Part shown: piece after piece, positions 9,750-53,683 of the stretch
How the letters are laid out: each line of letters begins with the position of its first letter
How positions within the stretch are numbered: the stretch's first letter is position 1
NCBI GenBank assembly: GCA_019055375.1
Contig: JAHQIW010005335.1
Location: forward strand, 124,001 to 188,000
DNA length: 64,000 bases
Source of the DNA: Parelaphostrongylus tenuis
Taxonomy: Eukaryota; Nematoda; Chromadorea; Rhabditida; Metastrongylidae
Direction of reading: 5' to 3'
The notes under the pieces: generated by a model
What the model saw: only the letters and a program-made list of their open reading frames with translations
Told to the model about the DNA's origin: nothing
Database searches by the model: none
Made by a program: the position numbers and the translations under genes

Positions 9750-9812
9750 GGCATTTGTACAGTACTAAACAGCCCTGTTTCGTCTTCCCAGGCTCATCAG
9801 TAGCACGGTGCC
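9750..9812 (-). ncRNA. Type I hammerhead ribozyme, complete core, different stem I
   Basis: On the minus strand: outer stem GGCA/TGCC, inner stem I GTGCTA/TAGTAC (6 bp with one G-U), core CTGATGA (9800-9794), stem II closed by G-C at 9793/9782, GAA at 9781-9779, stem III ACAG-GG-CTGT, H17 = U at 9768. All core positions are present. The flank keeps the family arm (CAGACCTCAT on the minus strand). Confidence 0.83.
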
Positions 9813-13450: not shown

Positions 13451-13575
13451 GGACCGGACTAACTTAAGTTATCGGATTGATGTCGTAGCTTCAGAGTTAT
13501 CAGAACCTTTAACCCAAGTAAATACATGTGTGACTCGGATTGCTTAGCTGTTGAGTCGAACAAAAGTGTTTTTAT

Positions 13576-13826
13576 CATATTATATCTTTCCTTCGAGTGC
13601 TTTGTTAAGACCACGCTCAAATTTCAATAGGTCCTTTCAGTATTATTTGAGCCAACCTGTCATGTGGTCTGGTTCCCGAGAGAACTGACTATGAAAAGAT
13701 CGAGAGACGACGGGTTCTGCCCGGACTGACGAGTCTGTAAGGACGAAACACGTGTCTCGGGCTGTACAAGAGCCCTTACCAGACCACATGACATGTTGGC
13801 TCAAATAATAATGGGAGGATCTATTG
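13576..13826 (+). mobile_element. Palindromic hammerhead-bearing element with 14-bp target duplication
   Basis: A 251-base element lies between two identical 14-base direct repeats, AAAAGTGTTTTTAT, at 13562-13575 and 13827-13840. Its inner arms 13625-13672 and 13779-13826 are imperfect inverted repeats of about 48 bases. A hammerhead ribozyme sits between them. There is no coding frame. A 14-base duplication fits target-primed reverse transcription better than cut-and-paste transposition, which usually duplicates 2-9 bases. Confidence 0.8.
13712..13775 (+). ncRNA. Type I hammerhead ribozyme (near-intact)
   Basis: Outer stem I GGGTTCT (13712-13718) pairs with AGAGCCC (13769-13775), including one G-U pair. 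Inner stem I is formed by 13719-13725 and TCGGGC (13757-13762) with one bulged G. The core is CTGACGA at 13726-13732, stem II GTCT/GGAC closes a GTAA loop, then GAA at 13745-13747, a 2-bp stem III with an ACGT loop, and H17 = C at 13756. The 6-base asymmetric loop TGTACA in stem I is where natural type I hammerheads make their loop-loop contact. Confidence 0.82.
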
Positions 13827-14417
13827 AAAAGTGTTTTTATAAACTAAATGCGTCAATTCGTTATACTAGATGCCGCGTGGATGCAAACAATACAATAACA
13901 AGTATCTCACTTTAGAGAAGCTTGAAATAATCGCTAACTAAATCTATTTAGGAGCACTCCTCGCCACTCTCTCACTAAAGGTGATATCATCATCACTATA
14001 GGATTAGGCTCTTCCTCAACGATCTCCTTGAAAAATCGATTCTTTTCGTGTTTTCCATGAAATAGAGGATGGGTTTGACAAGAAAACAGTCAGTGGAAAG
14101 GACACTATTCGAAAAAATACATGAAATGGCAATAGTGCCGGTTGGACTGCGATCGGCATGGAAACATTTAGATATCAGCACCGGCGTACGCCATACATTA
14201 TCGTTGACAACAATGTTTACTCTATCGGAAAAAGCCATGAAATCGTCGACTAAGGGTTATTTACAACGATTCTAAAGGTAGATAAATAAAAATAGATGTT
14301 TCATATTGAGTAAACACTATCGATACTCAGTGCATTCGGTTCCTTTGTAACGTTAATAAAATGGTGATTGAATACATATCTGCTAACATATCTTCAGCCT
14401 ATCATGGAGTGTGTTAT

Positions 14418-14478
14418 GGCACTTATACAGTGCTAGATAGCTGTCTCGGCATTGCAGCCTTATCAGTAGCACGATGCC
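14418..14478 (-). ncRNA. Decayed hammerhead ribozyme
   Basis: Stem I GTGCTA/TAGCAC is perfect and the outer stem GGCA/TGCC is kept. However, the core reads CTGATAA (G8 to A) and GAG instead of GAA, so activity is unlikely. Stem II can still form a GGC/GCC helix. Confidence 0.65.
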
Positions 14479-14691
14479 TTTCGGTTCAGCCAAACCCTTA
14501 CAAAAGGATAAACCCCTACATATAGAGGAAGCGACGCCTAATAACTAATTACCGCAAGTCGGGTGATGATATCCCAGTCGAGCTCATGGCTGGTAAATGG
14601 ATCATACTTATACATCTGACTGCTTTTTTAGACCTCGCTCAAAACAATAACAATCTGATAAGATATTTCAAGCGTTTCATGAGGTCTGTTA

Positions 14692-14748
14692 TGGGATTTA
14701 TGCAGTGCTAAATAGCTGTTTCGGCACAGCAGCATCAGTAGCGAGGTA
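14692..14748 (-). ncRNA. Decayed hammerhead ribozyme
   Basis: CTGATG is followed by C instead of the required A9, then CGAAAC, a damaged stem III and TAGCAC. The downstream arm CAGACCTCATGA is conserved. It lies 215-275 bases from the previous copy in the same orientation. Confidence 0.55.
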
Positions 14749-17614: not shown

Positions 17615-20600
17615 TTAGGATTTACCTGAACCTGGAGATCCAGGCTCAGAATCAGAAGCACCTCCGGCCGATTTCTCGTTTAACACGACGAATTCACGAC
17701 TTGAAAAACCGAATTTCAGCACATCCTTTTCTTTTAATTCGATATATCTGCAATTAAAATAATTTTCCACAGCTAGTAAAAGTGAACGCGCTTATTTCAG
17801 GTTGATACTGATTTTAGGGAATAAAATAGAACCAAACAAGCTAGTTATTAAATGAGGACTTCCGAAAAATTTTTTCTTCCGTAACAAAACCACATTTGTC
17901 GAAATGTGAGCAATGAAAACGAGCACACAAGGATAAATTTGAATTGCAAAAATAACCAATATAACTTATGAAACATGCCGTCCTAAACTCTTGAGATTTT
18001 ACTGAGAATACTTAGTAAGAACCCTCATAAAAAAGGCGAAATGTCACCTTTGGGGTTCAATCTTTGAACCATTAAGAAGAGTTCCGTTTGAACTTCCCAG
18101 GTCTATTATATACGGTAGAACACGACGTGCCTTTGTGCCATCGGCTCGCTCAAAAGGAACCGATCTAAAACATAGTTTTCGTTTATATAGAGAAATCTGA
18201 GAAAGAAAATCACTCCACCTGTACTGCAAAACAGCATGTTGCTTGCTACAACTTGGATGATCAATCGGTAAATCAGCAATTTTTCGATCCCTTCCAATCA
18301 GATAGGCCGATTGCCTGTGAATGTGAAGAACCGGCAACGCCTCTTCACCTTTGAAAGGATATAAGCGCCATCTGAATTTGAACGAATAAGTAGGAAAGCG
18401 TGAGTATTTCAAATCTACCGACTTTTCCTCCAAAAAGTGGTATTTTCACCAGGATAAAGGTTTTAGTTACATAGGGGAAATAACAATCTTAACGAAAACA
18501 TGGCTCACCTCAATGTTGGCTTCTTAGCCTCGGGAGGCTCATTATATTTTATCAGCACTCCGCGATACATATTAGTATCTTCGGCTAGTTTTCCACTGAC
18601 TCCAAGATTGACCTGGATGATTTATGAGTCAATGAGCACCTAGTGAGTCGTGGGTGAACACTGAAATAGTATAATTTAATACCTTTTCCTTTTCCTTTAC
18701 TGGAGGGTCATCATTCTTGCCGGATCCCCATCTTTCCGACACACCCCATCGATCTCTGAAATGTTCTGTTAACAATGAATTACCTCAATAAAAAGCCAAA
18801 GCTCAAGCAACTGATTCCACTAACTTAGACTTTGTCTCAGATTCCTTTGAAAAAGCATCATCCTCGTCAGCCTCACGTTTGATTCCTACAATTATCCTTT
18901 CCAGTTCTCAGACAGGATCACAAAAAGCGTAAAAACAATCGTGAATGGAGGAAAATTATACTACTACAAAATACACACTTTTTCCTGGCCCGCTATTCTT
19001 TCCAGATGAGCCACGGTCTGCAGAAGAGCCTTCGTCCTCCAATTCTCGCTTTATCTGGCGAACCCGGCTACTTCCGTTACCTTTTACACTTCTAAAACAG
19101 CAGCAGATAAAATTAAGGGGACTTTTCTGCTGAATGTACAGAACAATTAGCACCTATCCGTTTGAGAGCTGCGATTACGATCACCACCCCTATCGTGAGG
19201 AGATCGCCTGAATAAATGAAGATCTTAAACATTAAGGAAAGCACGAATTCCAAAGAATGAAAGATCAGATAATAAGCCTTAACGATTACGTGAAATCTTG
19301 ACAACTACAACCCTTTAGGGACCATGGATACCTCTCCTGTGCATCCCTAACACCTAGCGTGGCTGGACGCTGGACGACTTCTCCACCTCCTCTGCCCCCT
19401 AACCCCCATATGGGAATGCACTAAATGTATTTTCGTATTGTTTCAATTATATTTAGCACTTTCGCACTTTACTTGATTCGTCATCAAAGTGCTTTTTTTC
19501 ACAGTGCGGATACCAGTACTTCTAGCAATCAATTCGCTTTCGTCTTCTCCTTGAACGGCGTAGAATACTGCTTGAGCAACTCTCCTTGCAATCTCGAGGA
19601 TAGCCTGGCTAAGGCGTTCTATAAAGTTGCTGTTGACTACCGAAGAGAGTTGAGGGCCCACGCGCGCCGCGATGAGCATCATAACCACTCGGCCACGACG
19701 CCATAATTAAATTACATATTGTTTTTATTTCCTATGTTATGCTATATGTAAATATATTATGCTGCTATCACCTGTATCACCTGTCGTCCCGTTGATCGTC
19801 GAGTGACTCGAGCGGGTACCAGCAACTCTTCCATTTTTCCCTATCGCGTGCAAGAATAGCCCAGTGGGTCCTCCTTGCTCTAGGAATTCGCTGAGCATCA
19901 TATCTTTCTTCCATCGCTTTCGTGAAGAAATCGGACCAACGGGTCAGTGGTCTTCCTTTAGAGCGCTTGACGTCCCGAGGAATCCAGTCGGTAACGGCTC
20001 TCGTCCATCGGTTGTCGTTGAAGCGCATCACGTGTCCGGCCCACCTTATTTTCGATATCCTGGCGTGTAGAACGGCGTCTCTGATTTTCGATCGTTGACG
20101 TAGGTCGGAAGTTCGGATCCTTTGTCTCATTTGCGAAATACGAGATACTCCTAGCATCGACCTTTCGACTGCGCGTTCGATAACGGCAAGTGATCTTTCA
20201 TCCTGCTTACGTAGCGACCAGGTTTCTGCTGCATACGTTAGGGCAGGGATAATTGTCGAGTCGAAAAGGTGGGCACGGAGTCGGATGTTCTTTGTCCTCT
20301 TCACTACATCTTCGATGCTCTTAAACGTTCCCCAAGCCGCTCGTTTCCTCCTGCTCAACTCTGGGGCTAGGTCGTTCATCATGTTGATTTCACGACCTAG
20401 ATAGATGTAACTGGAGCATTCGGAAATTGTCGTTCCGTTGAGCGTGAATGGGGCATTAGAAACCCATCCGTTCCTCATGAACATTGTTTTCGTTAGATTC
20501 AGTTGAAGACCGATCTTTCCACAGGCGTTGTCGAAATCAGTCAACATTCGTTCCGCTTGGCTGATGTTTGGTGTTATGAGAACGATATCGTCAGCAAAGC

Positions 20601-23600
20601 GAAGATGGTTTAATTGTCGACCGTCAATTTTCACTCCCATTTCGTCCCATTCTAATGTTCGCATGACGTTTTGTAGGGTGGCAGTGAATAGTTTTGGCGA
20701 TATTGTATCGCCTTGTCGAACCCCTCTTCTTACGTCAATGGTGATATTATTGTAGAATGGAGATATTCTGGTCGTGAAATCTTTATAAAGCTCACGAAGG
20801 ATCATTATGTACCGAGTAGGGACGCCCTGGTTATCCAGAGCCTCTATAACCGCTTCTGTTTCCACTGAGTCAAAGGCTTTCTTCAGATCGATAAAAGTGA
20901 GACAGAGTGGTTGTTTGTACTCTCGCGAAACTTCAATGAGTCTTGTGATCGTGTGGATGTGGTCCATGGTACTAAATCCTTTTCTGAACCCTGCTTGTTC
21001 GCATGGCTGTCCTTCGTCCAGTGTTCTGTCAATCCTGTTCAGGATGACTCGAGTAAAGAGTTTATAGACAACGGACAGCAAGCAGATTGGGCGATAATTG
21101 CCTATGTCGTGATATGCTGCTATAAGTGTGAAAATAACAACAATAATACAGTCGGAACAACGCAATAGTTCAGAAAATGCGACTCTACGCTGGAGTTAGG
21201 GTTCAGAGGAGGTGAAGTAGACCGTCCAGCGCTGCTACGCTGGGGGTTAGAAATGCGGCTCCACGGTCCCGAAATGATTAAATGAAAAACATTTGAATCA
21301 AATCATCAAGATCTTCTCCTTACTTCATTTTTGTAATAAGGACTGATAGTACATAGACCAAATTCTGAGAAGAAAATTAGAACACTCTTACAGCAACCAT
21401 TTATATAAGAAAAACGAAATCAGTACCTACCTTTCCCTTCTTCGTGGAGAAACTGATCGTGATTTTGACCTGGAAGAACATAGGCTAAGTAATAAGGATT
21501 ATCAGTCGAAATATTTGATGAATGTACCACTAAAGGAGAAAAGAAACAAACTAGAGGATGACAAAAAGTCCACTTTCCACTGACAAAAATTGAGAGAATC
21601 CTATCGAACGAAGTTTCCTTAATACTACTAAAAGAGGTCAGAAACTACCATGCCTTGGAATCAACAAAGCACGAAAAATCTCCAATTCTTGCAATTAACA
21701 GCACCAAATTTTGCCATTCTATAATGTTGGAATGTTGGATCGAATGATGATCCTGAATGTCGCCTCACCTTCGCCGTTCTTTTCTCTTTTCTTCTAGATC
21801 GTCCGCATTTCTAGAGTACACTTGAAATAGAACAAATATGTGGGAAAAAATCAAGCCGATGGTTGAGATCAGATACCAACCTCTTCGGTGTTGATGAACT
21901 ATCTCTTCGAGGGCGCTTGGTTTCCGTTGATACCCTTAATAATAACTATCATGGATCAAACCGTAAATAATGACTTTCCCTTAAATATAACGTACTTTCT
22001 TGTCGCCGCTGAAGAGGAGGCTCCTTTGCTTCGCTTATTTTCCGGCGAAGGTGACCTGCAAAACAGATCGCCTATGAAATTTTAACTCGATATTTGAACA
22101 GAAACAGCTCACGAGTAGTCGTCATCGGAATCCTCAGAAGTGGTCACTTCTTTCTTCACTCTTTTGGGCCACATCTTAGGACTTTCAGCTCCTTCCCTTG
22201 AGTCATTCCGTCTTCCTCGACGACTTCGAGAATCATCTCTCCTTTTGCGATCCCTCGAATCATCCCGTCTTCTGCGATCCCTCGAATCATCTCTTCTCCT
22301 TCGATCCCTCGAATCGCCTCTTTTACGACGATCCCGAGGATCTTCCCATCTCCGATTTTCATCATGACGTCGAATGTCCCTATCACCACCCAAATAGCTA
22401 TCTCTTCGGAAGCGATCACGTCTATCACTGAATCGTCTAGGACTGTTTCTTCTTTTCCTATCATGTGGACTTCTGCTCCGCTCACGCGATCGATCACGGA
22501 TACTCTCTTTTCTACGTTGCACCGGCGACCTACTTCTATCTTTTCGTGTTTTTTCGTAAGACTTTTTGGCTTCACTTCGACGTCGTTCGTCCTCAGGTGA
22601 CTTCGGCTTGGGGCTGATACGATTACGTCTAGCAGGAGAACTGCTGCGACCACGCCTCTCAGGTGAAGATTCTTCTTTTCGACTTTTATTACTGACTTCC
22701 TTCTCTTCATTAGATGATGACCTACTTCCAGAGTCGTGCCTCTTTTTCTGAAGTTCTTTAGATTTCACCATTACTTCTTCAAGACGGCTTTGTTCCTTTG
22801 TCTCCTCAGGCGATCGCGAACGACTCCTCTGTGTTACTTTTATAGGAGGAGACTGCTCTTTTTCTCTTACAAATTCTTGCTCGTTGTAATTTTTCTTCCC
22901 ATCATCTCCTTCTTCACGAAATCGCACTGGTGACATATGATCAGACGCACTTCCTTCAGATTCCTTTCGTTTCTTTTTGTGTTTCTCCGAACTCTTTGAA
23001 CTCTTCTTCTTCTTCTTTTTTGACTTTTTCGCCTTCTTTCTAGCATGAGATTCTTCATCATTTTCAGATCCTGAAGCCGATGACGATCGACTCCGATGTT
23101 TCTTCTTACTGCCCGACTTGGATCGCTTTCGCTTCGAGTGTTTTTTCTTCTTCCCCTTCTTATTCTCGAGATGCCTGAAAGTGAAAAGAAATAGATTACA
23201 CCCCTAAGAAAAACAGTAAAAGTATGTTATCCGAAAACTAGTGAAAAACGATACCTTTCGCTGCACAAAAACTTTTCATGAGTGTTAGTAATCAATCGAA
23301 AGCTCAAATCTCTGGCCACTGAGCTGCTTAGCCGCTTTTGAAAAAACTCTTTTATAACGCTATAGCAATAAAAGTAAAATTATGTTTCACACCAGCCGCA
23401 CGCTTTTACTATTATTTCGCTAAAAACACGAAAAGCATACGAACGTGTAGAGGGAATTTCGAAGTAACAGCGCTATACGTTTTATGTGGAGTTTCTTCCG
23501 CAATAAAGCAAAAAATTATGATTTAATAACGAATTGCACGTCACATGTGTAAAGCATTAGCGTAATCGATAGATCACCGTACTGAAACCTCAGGCAGTCC

Positions 23601-26600
23601 CTGCCCCTTCCCATAGCCCGTAGATTAGCCGAAAAACAATGCCGCGCATATGTGAACCCCGTCTTACTTTCGTTGTTAGACTGCAGTGTAACCGTCTTTT
23701 CACAAATCAGGCACAACATTGGAATCACCCAAACTTACGCTGCCGAAAGGTCATTTATAGTCCCAGGAAGCAGTTTTGTCCTGAAAGAAATGTGCGTGTG
23801 AAACACAAATCTTTCCTTTGTACTGCAACGTTACAAAAAGGCTTTCTTAAGAAGAAGGGCAAGTAGCGCAGTAGCTAGATATTTGAGCTTTCGAATGATT
23901 ACTAACACTCTTATGAAAAATTCTTGTACAGCAAAAGGGGTCGTTTCTTCATTCGCTTCCGGATTTCTCGTACCGAAGAAAAAAAATAAAATTACTTCGC
24001 CATCTCCTCAGCAGAGTCGCTCGAAGTATCATGACGAGGACGTTCTGTCTCTTTTTGTGTTCTATCATCCCTGAAAATGGCAGGAATTGTATGGTTTTTT
24101 GACATCAAAGTCAAGTCATGCTATTAAAGAGACTAAAACAAGTTTGATCATAATTAAACCACTGATAATAAAAAAAAGCAGTTTCGAACTCTAGAAGCTC
24201 AGTACGTAAAAAGGCCGAGCACAACTCACAGTAATTTGCACCAAAAAAAAAAACACTCATAATACACATTTCACCTGGATGAAGAGCGATCGCCTACACT
24301 CCTTGAATCAGAATCGTGACGTTTCATTTTCTTGCGGGATTTTTTCTCGACTGAACGCGAACGCCTTTCAACAGGTGATCTTGAAAAATGCAGAGGTTAA
24401 ATTTGAAGCTCACCTTAAAAAAAATGCTCCAAACTTACGCAGAACGTTTAATGCTTTCTTTCGACCTCGAAGGTTCACTTCTCTCCGCCTTATCCCCCTG
24501 ATTTTTTCGGCCTGACGGACTTTTAGCTTTCGATTGATCTCCCGTGCTGAAACTTTGGCCCGAATCTAAGTATAATTACAAGTATAATCTGCACACTGCT
24601 TCCATTTGCTAGCAGACTTGTACTAAAAAAAATAGTGCACTTAATGGCATTCATAACGCACAGAATGAACCACGACCATTTGCAGTTCCAAAAATTTTGG
24701 ACGTAGCAAAATAATCAGACAAAATTTTTGATGGTCTCACAATGAATTACTATTGAACCAAAAACACCTTGGAAGAATTGGAAGAGATATTCATCTAATT
24801 ATCTATATCTTGGGAGTATTTCAAAATAGCAGACTGCAATGTTTGTTACATATGCCCACGTAACAACCATAAGCCATGCACGACAATCAATGACACTCGA
24901 CTCTTTGAAAAAACGCCACGGTGATTGTTACACCGTATATCGAGTGTAAAAATTTCGTCGCCGCTTCCTCTTTGTAGTGGGAGATTCCCGAGGAACTGAC
25001 TGAACGAAAAGGCACCGTGCAACTGACGACGATGGAAGGCCGAAACACGTGTATTGCACCGTATGAGCGTCCATATCAGACCTCATGAATGGCTCAAAAT
25101 ACATTGTCAGATTATACTGTTCTCCAACGAGGTCTCAGAATAGTTGATTGCAACGTTTGCTACATAATCATATTTCTTTTTTTTTCATAGTCATTTTCAT
25201 ATTTTTATTCAAAACGCCTTAATACACCTAAGAACCTAAGGTTTCGTTTTCTTAATATTATGCCAACGTAGAATAAAGCTTTCTTTTGTAGGATGGCAAA
25301 TTATAAGTGAGGAAAATTGAGGAGAACTAGAAGATAAAGGGAAGATAAATATCACAAGAGTGAATGCAAATCATAAATATTCATTGGGAGACACAAGGGA
25401 AAGAATCTTACTACGGACCTTTTTTTAGCAGAAGTAGAGCGGGTAGAACTCGAATGACGTTCCTCTTCCTTATTCTCAGATGATCTGGACCGTCGTCGTT
25501 TTTCAGCTAAGTGCATGATTTTCAACAAATATGTATATATCTTAGACACAGAAGAAATATACAAGATAAACGGCTGCGAGATACCCATAAAACGGAAGCT
25601 GAAAACAACTGCGGCAAAATGGACGTGGGAACAAAACGTAAAAATACCTGTCACTGCAGAGGACTTGCTTTTCGAAACCTCTTTTTTATGCTTCTTTCGC
25701 AGTAACCGGCGAACCACTGCGGGAAGCTGAAGATTTACTGGTAGTAGATTCCTTTGATGAGCCTGACAAGGTTTGAACAAAATAGTATTTTTAGAGGAAA
25801 GTATTTTTGCTGTCAGTGCAAAGAATGAAAAGGAGCCTACGTACCAGTCATGCTGTAAAAAAACCACGCTAGTGGAGGGTTGTAATCCTATCACTTTTTT
25901 GAGCCGAAACCCAAGTCTAGGCCTAAGGTTAAGGTTAAGCTAAGCCTAGACCTAGACTTGAGTCGAAGCGAGCCTAAGCCTACATCCAAGCTTAAGCCTA
26001 AACCTAGGCCGAAACTTAAGCCTAAGTCTAGACTCAAGCCTAAGCCTGAGCCTATACCTAAGCGTGCTCTCATAATTTTCTAATTAAAGAAATCAATTTA
26101 ACAAAAATCCTCAAGAAGTTGATGAGACCACAATTCTCCGTATGAGCCAAAGAAAGTAATTGGTTAGCATTTTGCTGACTAAAAAAACAGCGAATATAGG
26201 TTAGATTTCTATTGAAGATAAGGGATAGAGCTTCCGGCGTCGACCGATCCCAACGGAATGCTTCATGTATTCGACTTTATCGAGCATCGTAGAGGGTGAC
26301 TGAATGCATATCTGACCTTTACAAAGACTCGCGATAGCCTATAAATGCATAAAGTCGGTGCTTCTTTGCAAGTCAAAGATCAATTCGCTAACCCCGGAGG
26401 ATTGGCAGGCTTGATCAGTCTTGTCCACGGGAATGAACCATTGACGATGTGTGCGCCGCAGGGCACCTCTAACCACTGCACATGTACTCTTAGTTTTCTA
26501 TACGAATAAAAATAAAGTGTGACGATGGTAACGAGCTTGGCATCACGAAATGGGCCTCGTGTACGTCACCATGCTCGAAAGATCATCACCCTGGACGACA

Positions 26601-27470: not shown

Positions 27471-28252
27471 TAGACTAATTAGGCTCAAAACCGAAGGTTG
27501 GCGAAAACAGAGAGATAAAGAACACGGTGGGAAATTCCGACCGAAAATCTGCCAACCTTGGCGTTTTCAATAATTTCTAGAATATTAGGTCGTTCCATAA
27601 GTTTTGGCAGTGTAGAATTAAACACTGAAGATAATCCAGAAGTAAATGGAATTGTATGGTTTTGGTATCGTTCAATTGCGCATTTTGTCGCGAATATTTC
27701 GGTATACAACTTGCCTAGACTTGTTTCGAGACAGAACAGTTCTAGGGACAGATTCGCTTACTGCTCATGCACGAATGGCGCGTGGGGAAAAATGCTAATG
27801 AAGCGGACGGCCCAAGCGTGACTGCTATTCCAGACTGTTCTCTCCAGAGAGCAGTCCCAGGAATAAATTCGCTTAATACTCACGCACGAATGGCGCGTAG
27901 GGAAAAATGCTGGTGAAGCGACGCGTAAGATGAGAATGGAACTTCTTGTGGACGGCCCAAGCCTGACTGATCTTCCAGACTGTTCTCTCCAGCTTTGAAC
28001 TTCACGAACCACTTCCTTACCGTCCCTTCTGCAACCGTACCATCGTCCCAAGACCCACTAACCTTTGCGCGCCGATTCATTAGCATTTTTACCTGACGCG
28101 CCTTTCGTGCATAAGTAGTAAGCGAATTTGTTCCCACGACAGCTTCATCTTAAAACTAGTATAGGCAAGTTGTATAATAAATTGTTCGCAATGTGCAATT
28201 GAACGATACTAAAATCATGCAATTATAGTTACTTCTGGGTGATAAACTTAGT

Positions 28253-28690
28253 CATATCTTTCGTTTCGAGTGTTTTCCTAAGACCACAGCTCGAATTTCG
28301 ATATGCCTGGTAATCATTTTTTGAGCCACGCATATCAGTGATCTGTCAAGGAGGACTGACTTATAGAGCACGATACACGTGTTGCGATCTTGCGATCTCA
28401 TCAGTCGGCAGTTACCCTTTCTCGTCTTTTGCCAATCCTGTGTGGGTGCTCCAGTCCTCACACTACGAGTCAGCGACGACGAAAGTTTTACACTCTATGT
28501 TCCAGTGAATTATCACCGAACACAGAGCGTTATACACTCGAATGTTCTTGGCTAGTATATTTAATATATCATATCTTTCGTTTCGAGTGTTTTCTTAAGA
28601 CCACAGCTCGAATTTCAATATGCCTGGTGGTATTTTTGAGCCAGAGATAGACCACTGACGTGCGTGGCTCAAAAATAATTACCAGGCATA
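28253..28690. mobile_element. Tandem ends of hammerhead-family elements
   Basis: Two left ends of the family, each with CTTTCGTTTCGAGTGTTTTC followed by AAGACCACAGCTCGAATTTC, occur at 28258 and 28570. The second is followed almost at once by its inverted right arm (28650-28690). The first is followed by the decayed ribozyme at 28366-28412. The pair interrupts the foldback mariner. Confidence 0.6.
28366..28412 (-). ncRNA. Decayed hammerhead ribozyme with perfect stem II
   Basis: On the minus strand CTGATGA is followed by stem II GATC-GCAA-GATC, then GCA in place of GAA (A13 to C), the stem III ACACGTGT, H17 = A, and a stem I that keeps only three pairs. It lies inside the nested region of the foldback mariner at 27586-28742. 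Confidence 0.6.
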
Positions 28691-30860: not shown

Positions 30861-31042
30861 GTAAGAATCTTTGACCAGTCAGTGAGAGGTATGACATATC
30901 CAATGATATCAGCCAAGAGCAATCGAGTGTAATACACTGCCATTCAGTGATATTTTCGATTAATGGCACGTTTAAAATGTTCGTCGTCGCCAACTCTATA
31001 TAGGAATCTGAGCTGTCCCAAGAGGATTGATTGAAGACGGAG

Positions 31043-31108
31043 GGTACTGCCCGACTGACGAGGTTGTCAAGGCCGAAACACGTGTACGTGCAACGGGCTC
31101 CGTAAGTT
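31043..31108 (+). ncRNA. Partly decayed hammerhead ribozyme
   Basis: The core CTGACGA (31055-31061) and CGAAACACGTGTA (31074-31086) are complete and stem II can form GG/CC plus two G-U pairs. Seven extra bases separate H17 from the CGGGC that would close stem I with GCCCG. The right arm (31125-31200) has GGCTCAAA and the long family end ACCACGCTCAA in inverse. Confidence 0.6.
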
Positions 31109-31209
31109 GCCCCACTACAGACCACGTGCTTGGCTCAAAAAATGATTATGAGGCATATTGAAAGTTGAGCGTGGTCTTAGAAACACTCGAAACAAAAGGA
31201 CTGTTAAGA

Positions 31210-32960: not shown

Positions 32961-34436
32961 TTTATTCCCGGATAGCGGAAAAGAGTCACCAATACATATG
33001 CGAGCGCAGCATTCCGCATGGGTGGCAAAATTCAAATCGCGCTCTGAAATTAGTACATATCTACTGAGCAGTAATCAGTAAAGTCGCGGCAAACAAAATT
33101 TGTAGAGATGTCATTCTATTCTTTGGAGAAAGACCTAAAGTATCTTGAGGTACTTGAATAAATAGTTTCCGGAGGGCCGACGATAGGAAGGCTGCACGGC
33201 TCAAAATCTGTGCATACTCGACTTGAAACATATGGACACTATGGACCAGCATGTGCTTATATGATTGCGAATATGTCAAATGGAGCAGCAAAGTTGTGCG
33301 GAAGGGTAATGAAGATCTCTATGTGTCGTCAGAAGACAAGAGACTTTATTGCGGAGCCTGATTGTGGTTAACGTATAGACATGGTGCACGTGTTAACCTG
33401 TAACGGTCTCACATGCAGTTCGAGCCAGCTGTGAAGCAAAAAGCATGAGCCGTTTGCTCTGGTGCTGTGTGATGAAGCAAGCATAACTGTGTGTTAACGT
33501 TGCTGGACAGCTAATGATTATTTTGAAGATTAGCCATTGTACACCTTCTATAAATCAAGATTTTACTAAACCTACTCAAAAAGAAGTTCTAGCTTCCGTA
33601 GACTGAAAAAGGTGGATCTGCCGAAACGCCAGCCGATATTGCATCGAAAAATCTTCTTCTTAACAGCTTACTTTTTTATTTACTTTCTAAGAAAGCAGTA
33701 AATTATTGATCAGTGCCAAGATCATCAGAAAGTCGATCTTGGAGAAATATTTCAGCGACAAAAGACCATGTCGTCGGACAACTGAAAAGTCGTTAAAATC
33801 TACCAGCGAAGGAAAACTCATATTTGACACAAATCGTTCGCCAGTATCTAGCTTACGGAAACCACACTATCATCTGACTTGTTGATCCAGGTTATGGGAA
33901 GTTGTAAATCTCCAACGACATATTAGTAACGTAGTATACAGATTAGACATCACACAAATGAGGCGATAGGGTGATTACCAAAAGAAAAAAAAATCAAAAG
34001 CAATTGAGTGATAAATTGCAAATTTGACATCCGCGATACTGCAGCGACGTTATTTTTCTAATTTCGCTCTTAAGCGCTACAAAATTTCTTAACAAAAACT
34101 GAGCACTGAATAATAAGGAAATTTGAAAAGTACGATATCATAGTAACATTGGAACATGAATCGTACTCCAACCAAAAAATGCTTAATATAACAGTGAAGT
34201 TGAGGCATTATCCCGTTAGAATCTAGCTTCAAAATGCATTTTACGCATTGAGTTCAATGCAATCACTATGAAAGCTTGAATTGCGCCTAATCCTACGCTG
34301 CTGTTGTGCAAAATTGGATGTTAGCGTATGTAGTTTAGAGAAGTTAGAAAGTATCATTTTCTCAACATTCTAGTGTAATTTCGCACTGCATTTCTAGAGA
34401 AGTATTTTGTTGAGTTGCGAATACATTTTGAAGCTG
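32961..34436. other. No gene seen
   Basis: AT-rich, without coding signal or a clear repeat family. Confidence 0.45.
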
Positions 34437-34446
34437 AATCGACATT

Positions 34447-34700
34447 ATACCTTCATTTCGAATGCTTTATTAAGATCCTTTCATTATCATTTGGGCTAAC
34501 TTATCATGCGGTCTGGTAAGGGCTCTCGTACAGCCCGATACACGTGTTTCGTCCTTACAGACTCGTCAGTCGGGCAGAACCCGTCGTCTCTCGATAATTC
34601 TCTGTCTGGTCTGTAAGGACGAACTCTGTATCGGGCTGTACGAGAGCCCTTACCAGACCACATGACAAGTTGGCTCAAATAATAATGAAAGGATCTATTG
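34447..34700 (-). mobile_element. Second hammerhead-bearing palindromic element with 10-bp target duplication
   Basis: A 254-base element flanked by AATCGACATT at 34437-34446 and 34701-34710. The palindrome here is longer than in the 13.6-kb copy: it runs through the 3' half of the ribozyme, so the right arm repeats the ribozyme's 3' strand in the opposite sense (34610-34665, plus strand). Its length and last bases (GGATCTATTG) agree with the 13.6-kb element, which fixes the family's 3' boundary. Confidence 0.78.
34520..34582 (-). ncRNA. Type I hammerhead ribozyme, complete core
   Basis: On the minus strand: outer stem I GGGTTCT/AGAGCCC, inner stem I GCCCGA/TCGGGC (perfect 6 bp), core CTGACGA, stem II GTCT-GTAA-GGAC, GAA, stem III AC-ACGT-GT, H17 = A at 34539. 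Every invariant hammerhead position (C3, U4, G5, A6, G8, A9, G12, A13, A14, A15.1-U16.1) is present, so self-cleavage is predicted after position 34539 of the minus strand. Confidence 0.87.
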
Positions 34701-34784
34701 AATCGACATTGTTTCTTCATGCACTGTAGTGTGAAAAGCAGGAATAAATTAGAAACGTGAAATATGTGAAAGGGAGTGGTGGCA

Positions 34785-34975
34785 AAACGGGCCTTTGTAG
34801 TGCAACGGGTTAGAGCACGCGCTTCTGGATAGAATGAAATGCGGGTTTGAGTCCCGTCCAACGCGAAAGTTTGCGCATCACTCTACATCAGTGTTGACAG
34901 GTAGGACATCATACCACCGCTAATTGCGCTTAAATAAAAGGATTTTTTGATCATCCAATACCCAGTATCTGTTAG
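34785..34975 (+). repeat. tRNA-derived SINE family B, with A and B boxes
   Basis: TAGTGCAACGGGTTAGAGCA (A-box side, 34798) and GGGTTTGAGTCCCG (B box, 34841) are spaced as in a tRNA-derived pol III promoter. They are followed by a tail with CACTCTACATCAG. It begins about 75 bases after a hammerhead element. Other copies: 35085-35195 (+), 59715-59860 (-), 59940-60015 (+, partial), 63905-64000 (+, cut by the window end). No cloverleaf acceptor stem could be drawn, so this is not called a tRNA gene. Confidence 0.65.
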
Positions 34976-35292
34976 CGTGATGAGCTTCAATGTCGATACC
35001 GATTACCTGGACCAAACCGTTGACGGTAGGTTGCTGACAGATAGTTGCGTTGTAGCGGGGAAAGATAGCTGGTAAAACGGGCGCCAGTAGTGTAACGGGT
35101 TAAAGCACGCGCTCTGGGGTAGAGTGAGATGCGAGTACGAGCAGCGCCTGACGTAAAACTTTTGCACAGCACTCTACATCACTGGGTATATCTAAAAAGC
35201 GAAGTAGTTGAACAGGGAAGCAAGCCAATAAGTATATAAAGCATTGCAAAAAAATATAGTCCCTATCCATTCACTATCCTGTTTGCATTTTT

Positions 35293-38187: not shown

Positions 38188-53683
<15,496 letters not shown>

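Follow-up and report, generated by a model that had tools for sequence, protein, structure and literature searches.

The window, by which we mean the whole 64,000-nt stretch of DNA analyzed here, carries a palindromic element of approximately 250 bp (copy A) between target-site duplications (TSDs). The duplication is 12 bp long, with TGAATCGACATT on both sides (34435..34446 on the left and 34699..34710 on the right), rather than the 10 bp given in the initial annotation, which had rightly recognized its presence. The arms of the palindrome (34473-34542 and 34627-34696) measure 70 nt and are 93% complementary. When mapped on the circular unit of its family, copy A consists of a minus arm at 34444..34595, the ribozyme strand, which begins at a site termed beta (reference position R198) and runs back to R26 with an internal gap of approximately 20 nt near 34475, and a plus arm at 34602..34702, which runs from R52, inside the ribozyme core, out to a second site termed alpha (R154). 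The outermost few bases of each arm are shared with the TSD. With the start of the plus arm lying within the core, the palindrome spans the 3' part of the ribozyme, as had been noticed initially, and the opposite strand has only a partial second ribozyme. The longest ATG ORF found inside copy A is 55 aa, in keeping with the original description of the element as free of ORFs. Two tRNA-like sequences adjoin copy A at 34791-34865 and 35081-35155, approximately 290 bp apart. The first is called a tRNA-Ser by ARAGORN (Rfam score 30.4 against a threshold of 29) and the second lies far below threshold; the pair has the appearance of a repeat derived from a tRNA, not of genes.

The minus strand of copy A encodes a type I hammerhead at 34533..34575 with its core and stems intact. 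From 34575 to 34533 it reads, in segments, GCCCGA, CTGACGA, GTC-TGTAAG-GAC, GAAA, CACGTG, T and A, followed beyond the predicted cut (between 34539 and 34538) by TCGGGC. Direct reading of the sequence extends the ribozyme to 34520..34582, and a constrained fold agrees: an outer stem I of 7 bp (GGGTTCT/AGAGCCC, 34582-34576 with 34526-34520) is separated from the inner stem by a 6-nt bulge (TGTACG, 34532-34527). The Rfam model RF00163 matches from end to end (1-45 of 45) at 31.6 bits, with E-values of 2.4e-5 in the 2.2 kb scanned and 7e-4 for the whole window and all 4227 families. This score falls short of the strict Rfam threshold, the gathering score of 34, below which the initial annotation was to be considered refuted; the E-value and the relatives of copy A say otherwise. 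A relative elsewhere in the genome that belongs to the same subfamily (L065) scores 34.9 bits, above the gathering score, and three others (L081-L083) score exactly 31.6 bits, as copy A does. A hammerhead was found at E <= 0.01 in 8 of the 12 relatives' loci scanned with Rfam, and none at E 0.01 in the remaining four (L050, L068, L073, and L076). At the level of sequence, we therefore consider copy A confirmed as a type I hammerhead by its E-value and its relatives, despite the sub-threshold score.

Among the nine family cores parsed in the window, copy A is the sole one with an intact core, six of six inner stem I pairs, and three of three stem II pairs. A strict core pattern matched the window 19 times (two pairs of matches overlapping) against 7.9 expected, a count as high in none of 100 shuffles, and five of these matches fall within copies of the family. 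The genome-wide search for the hammerhead model that had been proposed for this element returned 31 matches to RF00163, 20 of them above the cut-off, among 74 scored of 119,811 first-look candidates.

Copy A as a whole folds at -159.5 kcal/mol (z -22; none of 200 shuffles equal it). Forcing the ribozyme stems in the whole element gives -126.1 kcal/mol, a cost of approximately 33 kcal/mol, and the arms pair instead; in the isolated 94-nt ribozyme, the same forcing costs 0.3 kcal/mol relative to the best fold. On these models, the isolated ribozyme is predicted to cut and a palindromic transcript would be expected to cut poorly. Since one ribozyme alone cannot release unit-length RNA, and since the strand bearing it base-pairs with the opposite arm, copy A probably represents the product of an insertion rather than a functioning source. 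Palindromic copies in general are likely to be end products, and tandem copies such as L016 are the likelier sources. Forcing the first ribozyme in the L016 tandem array (955 nt) costs 11.9 kcal/mol, compared with 1.7 kcal/mol in an isolated stretch, which counts against a working source.

A blastn search found relatives of copy A dispersed through the window. Copy B (13575..13829) is palindromic, with a minus arm from beta, a plus arm to alpha, and a 14-bp TSD (AAAAGTGTTTTTAT, 13562-13575 and 13827-13840); its plus-strand ribozyme (13719-13762) scores 27.7 bits and has one extra base in stem I, and the forced stems are disfavored by 13.9 kcal/mol even in isolation, which counts against activity. 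Copy F (28252..28690), also palindromic, joins a minus arm of 392 nt from beta, longer than one 317-nt unit, to a short plus arm to alpha, and its ribozyme core is mutated (GCAA). The palindromic copy G (52757..53060) likewise has a mutated core and, by eye, has beta at the left and alpha at the right, an arrangement that it shares with copies A and B. Copy D (30884..31198, plus strand) is unipolar and goes once around the entire unit, starting and finishing at beta, with 67% identity to the reference, and copy H (14430..14744, minus strand) contains two degenerate head-to-tail ribozymes 272 bp apart and is a decayed tandem dimer. Two further ribozyme cores belong to copy C (25017..25059, plus strand; stem I GTGCAA/TTGCAC, stem II broken) and copy E (9762..9806, minus strand; stem I GTGCTA/TAGTAC, one stem II mismatch).

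Copy A belongs to an abundant retrozyme family that lacks ORFs and whose units are circularly permuted. The units are approximately 317 nt long in the subfamily of the window and 285 nt in a second subfamily, with GC contents of 43.5% and 44.2%. A genome search with copy A produced 843 first-look candidates, of which 40 were scored (91 matches), and a search with the 285-nt unit produced 2618, of which 40 were scored (150 matches, the best per locus at 98-100% identity). The element had been introduced as a single palindromic hammerhead; the palindrome is real, and with these numbers its singularity is lost. Tandem arrangements are best developed in the 285-nt subfamily, where L016 has approximately 3.3 head-to-tail units, 7 of the 40 scored loci have at least three units in total (L016, also C1610, included), the longest single arm among these 40 best loci reaches approximately 5.3 units (C407), and the most units per locus is 8.2 (C149). 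In the window subfamily, we found only arms of approximately 1.2 units and the one decayed dimer. The family has several of the features by which metazoan non-LTR retrozymes are recognized: a type I hammerhead, a unit of 170-400 nt without an ORF, GC below 50%, tandems, and TSDs of more than 4 bp. Covariation on alignment A1 was left uncounted, as this alignment does not bring stem I of the two subfamilies into register. A third ribozyme family with intact-looking ribozymes (stem I GGGTCA/TGACCC) occurs on both strands of one inverted pair at L016:961 and L016:1189, and a possible fourth lies at L071:8780 (stem I ATGGTA/TACCAC, five of six pairs; stem III CGTACG).

To describe how copies are inserted, we mapped loci on the circular unit, numbered from the ribozyme cleavage site. 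Two fixed start sites emerged, beta lying approximately 45 nt downstream of alpha, and in a first mapping of 30 loci most showed a minus block with a plus block after it. A second mapping covered 72 loci and the window, omitting L004 and L006 as duplicates, and groups of at least 150 nt were retained (40 groups, one of which, copy F, is the source of the 317-nt reference). The script did not recover copies A, B, and G whole; A and B were mapped separately and G by eye. All 26 bipolar groups were minus-plus, that is, head-to-head, and none was plus-minus. Their ends were alpha and beta in 15 groups, alpha and alpha in one (L002), and beta and beta in none, with an end outside the windows defined for the two sites in the other 10. 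These alpha and beta windows make up 12-15% of the unit, with boundaries chosen after part of the data (the first mapping) was known, and they captured 48 of 66 reverse transcription (RT) start ends, 5 of 14 other outer ends, and 6 of 52 inner junction ends. The cleavage site was read across in 39 of the 40 groups.

Two further sets of loci gave similar results. Twelve loci chosen by similarity to copy A (L073-L084), some covered in part, included 10 bipolar loci, all minus-plus, and 16 of their 18 visible RT-start ends were at alpha or beta in a count made by eye with windows named only at that stage. Two of them, L074 and L078, lack a TSD and end in beta on either side. Both ends could be classed in 23 bipolar copies of the 72-locus set, L073-L084, and the window: 20 of these are alpha-beta, one is alpha-alpha, and two are beta-beta. 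The cleanest set comprises the 40 best-scored loci of the 285-nt subfamily, picked from the 2618 candidates by similarity alone (98-99% identity). Here, alpha denotes a block ending near U39, and overhangs shorter than approximately 20 nt go unreported. The set has 29 bipolar loci, all 29 head-to-head and none tail-to-tail, with alpha and beta ends in 23, alpha and another end in five (four at q71-73 and one at q264), alpha at both ends in one (C4390), and beta at both ends in none; the other 11 are unipolar and start at alpha in 10 cases and at beta in one. These counts may include allelic duplicates, as C3883 and C54 look like one insertion represented twice; L016 (C1610) also belongs to the 72-locus set. 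The four ends at q71-73 (C1000, C407, C2162, and C1450 of G000, 4 of the 29 bipolar copies) mark a possible third start site. An alpha-beta rule without exceptions is ruled out by L074, L078, L002, C4390, and the q71-73 ends.

Ends read at base level in 21 loci typically close with ...GCAGTCGATAGCAGAAG at beta and with ...CATATCCTTATC(AGATTAAATC) at alpha. Exact flanking duplications of at least 11 nt were present in 12 of 32 rows checked, corresponding to 11 distinct elements, and the other 20 rows had no exact 11-nt duplication and showed a shorter TSD or no clear one; of the 40-locus set, this check covers L016 only. The right copy of the TSD is displaced outward from the mapped end by 21 nt in L016 and by 15 nt in L019. 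By simple arithmetic that ignores base composition, an exact 11-mer would match by chance between the two stretches searched in approximately 6e-4 of loci. The head-to-head palindrome is the usual form in which this family inserts and is not a feature of the ribozyme.

Inverted repeats between TSDs resemble, at first sight, a MITE-like DNA transposon, and inverted repeats can also be produced as an artefact of assembly or amplification. We looked for the matching terminal inverted repeats and fixed-length TSD of a MITE or DNA transposon and did not find them; the two ends differ (alpha and beta), the copies are circularly permuted and multimeric, and the length of the TSD varies. From an artefact, neither TSDs nor a single orientation would be expected. 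We give this pair of explanations almost no credence. It is also very improbable that the palindromic copy replicates in the manner of a viroid, as a single RNA whose two strands each carry ribozymes. L005/L006 has ribozymes above the cut-off on both strands approximately 200 bp apart, relatives of copy A align across its palindrome, and L077, L080, L079, and copy B all join near 99-104, so that some sharing of junctions is conceivable. Against such an RNA, the inner junctions vary from copy to copy (42/32, 58/6, 62/11, 79/8, 42/22, 82/1, and others, for the reference ending at 1), and 46 of the 52 inner ends lie outside the alpha and beta windows.

The same genome contains Penelope-like elements (PLEs) that are inserted in a comparable way. 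A genome search for the GIY-YIG domain produced 1723 candidates and 150 scored matches, among which 22 neighbor pairs lie within 6 kb: 20 minus-plus, none plus-minus, one minus-minus, and one plus-plus. All 20 opposite-strand pairs are thus head-to-head. We examined 12 PLE loci, nine from these 20 pairs and three others. In the nine pair loci, the longest inverted arm pair per locus spans 1.4-2.2 kb with arms 86-99.8% alike. The other three loci (L070-L072) all contain an ORF, of 902, 894, and 813 aa, with RVT_1 and GIY-YIG domains. Judged by eye, eight of the nine pair loci have one short (alpha) and one long (beta) end, approximately 40 nt apart, and seven of these eight have a TSD of 9-13 bp. 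In L068, we found only an 8-mer repeat misplaced off the end, and L063 is short at both ends and has no TSD. PLEs and retrozymes of this genome bear the same two-site, two-strand scar. The initial annotation had rightly linked the element to the world of retrotransposons, and the palindrome that it had ascribed to the ribozyme element is the usual form of these PLEs as well. Copy A has no RT and GIY-YIG ORF, and the retrozymes show PLE-type head-to-head ends, a one-sided tail, and a TSD; the retrozyme inserts like a PLE without being one. The initial observation is confirmed and its interpretation is supported in part.

PLEs carry minimal hammerheads, according to the literature. At the 3' ends of the PLEs of this genome (L031-L072), a conserved motif, CTGAAGAAGGCGAACTGCCGAAACGTC, precedes the PLE ends; it resembles a hammerhead by eye only and has an additional base ahead of stem II. 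It was present in 24 of 30 further PLE loci, of which five (L034, L042, L047, L053, and L059) reach the beta stop and most others break near alpha, again as judged by eye. In PLEs, Rfam reported no hammerhead when eight loci were scanned with E-values of up to 1 allowed, nor in 241 nt of L071 with the limit raised to 10. The tails of PLEs and retrozymes showed no likeness beyond that of shuffles (192-264 of 2000 as good), which counts against a PLE link and rules out sequence homology of the two tails as an explanation; the same comparison between the two retrozyme subfamilies found them alike (0 of 2000 shuffles as good for F1a and F2, 11 of 2000 for F1f and F2). A hairpin may conceivably lie between alpha and beta in both PLEs and retrozymes. 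In 2 of the 30 PLE 3' loci (L048 and L050, sense strand, near 2200), a retrozyme begins directly at the PLE beta end, with no visible TSD at the junction in L048; such junctions could be nested insertions or could reflect template jumping, with retrozyme RNA copied first and PLE RNA next.

Head-to-head palindromes could also arise by snap-back, in which a first cDNA folds back and copies itself from a single start. Such self-priming on an antisense template is the published proposal for rotifer PLEs, as set out in the available text of Arkhipova (2013; PMC3846280), and it accounts for the head-to-head form. By our reasoning, snap-back should give mirror-image arms with equal outer coordinates. 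The ends differ in 23 of 29 retrozyme loci and also in eight of nine PLEs, and arm lengths are unequal, as in C407 with one unit against more than five, so that we hold snap-back to be unlikely. Unequal head-to-head arms with two different preferred outer sites fit instead a pair of priming events, each from its own target end, on RNA of a single kind.

Two primings might alternatively be supplied by a LINE through twin priming on circular RNA. L1 twin priming yields 5' inversions, and the window itself contains at 19777-21195 a 472-aa RT ORF (RVT_1) that resembles R2 and L1 ORF2 and apparently belongs to a LINE, whose family would be a candidate for moving the element. We know of no LINE twin priming that uses two fixed RNA sites, and it is the PLEs of this genome that show a matching alpha/beta scar and TSD range; we regard a LINE as a quite unlikely carrier.

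The copies thus document the unit with its ends and orientation and, for some of them, TSDs; they also show that the cleavage site is read through and that their scar is shared with the PLEs of this genome. Blocks that cross the cleavage site and are several units long need a circular or concatemeric template. We propose that the family is a non-autonomous, non-LTR retrozyme whose circular or multimeric RNA is probably copied from both target ends by PLE machinery. Tandem source copies would be transcribed, and hammerheads, if active as their sequences suggest, would cut the transcript into units of approximately 285-317 nt, which a host ligase may close into circles by analogy with published retrozymes. 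A Penelope-like RT/GIY-YIG protein, the enzyme that the scar points to, would then bind the region between alpha and beta and cut the target with a stagger of approximately 12 bp. Both target 3' ends would serve as primers, one copying from alpha and the other from beta, and each cDNA would cover anything from a fraction of a turn to several turns of the circular or multimeric RNA; the two cDNAs, joined head-to-head, would form the palindrome between the TSDs. In this scheme, we infer the activity of the ribozyme, the identity of the enzyme, and a template that is circular rather than tandem and linear. Extended to animal retrozymes, we lean modestly toward the view that they are moved by PLE enzymes, with both target ends priming on one kind of circular RNA, at alpha and at beta, for up to several turns. 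Each insertion would then consist of two rolling-circle reverse transcriptions joined head-to-head and would preserve a record of target priming from two sides as it occurs in vivo.

Metazoan non-LTR retrozymes are described in the accessible parts of two reports as having a type I hammerhead, a unit of 170-400 nt without an ORF, GC below 50%, a TSD of more than 4 bp, and tandems (Cervera and de la Pena, 2020, PMC7229834; PMC7761336), and the family described here agrees with them in hammerhead type, unit size, GC content, TSD, and tandems. It differs in that the published elements, as presented there, are tandem repeats, whereas most young scored copies here are head-to-head palindromes with two preferred starts. 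The Sm-alpha and W-elements of Schistosoma are likewise repeats with type I hammerheads, one of them with TSD-like repeats; the portion of the account available to us (PMC8490949) describes no head-to-head, two-site form of insertion. Among the titles and abstract openings listed from openly licensed PMC literature, there was no report of palindromic or head-to-head retrozymes or of retrozymes of nematodes. This genome has thousands of first-look candidates, near-identical young ones included.

PLEs have been proposed as partners of retrozymes since the two co-occur, and no motif names the partner in the accessible text (PMC7761336). Retrozyme ends with a scar shared with PLEs bring the question of the partner within direct experimental reach, with a single purified protein and a single small RNA as all that is needed. 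Rotifer PLEs, in the text available, have inverted ends, mostly head-to-head, with a 31-bp tail on one and TSDs of 8-10 bp that some copies lack, a structure called conserved among animals with such PLEs (Arkhipova, 2013; PMC3846280). According to the sections accessible to us, work with a purified Anolis PLE protein showed that it cleaves the two strands of the target and extends them both, with RT initiating at a pair of neighboring internal sites in the RNA; the stretch between these sites corresponds to the genomic PLE tail (Frangieh, 2024; PMC11167929). The retrozymes described here depart from PLEs in lacking an ORF and any sequence similarity to the PLE tail that we could detect. With GIY-YIG PLEs, as portrayed in these two sources (PMC3846280; PMC11167929), they share head-to-head inverted ends, a tail of 30-45 nt at one end, a short TSD, and partial tandems, and their palindromes provide genomic evidence for the both-strand priming that was reported in vitro for the lizard PLE.
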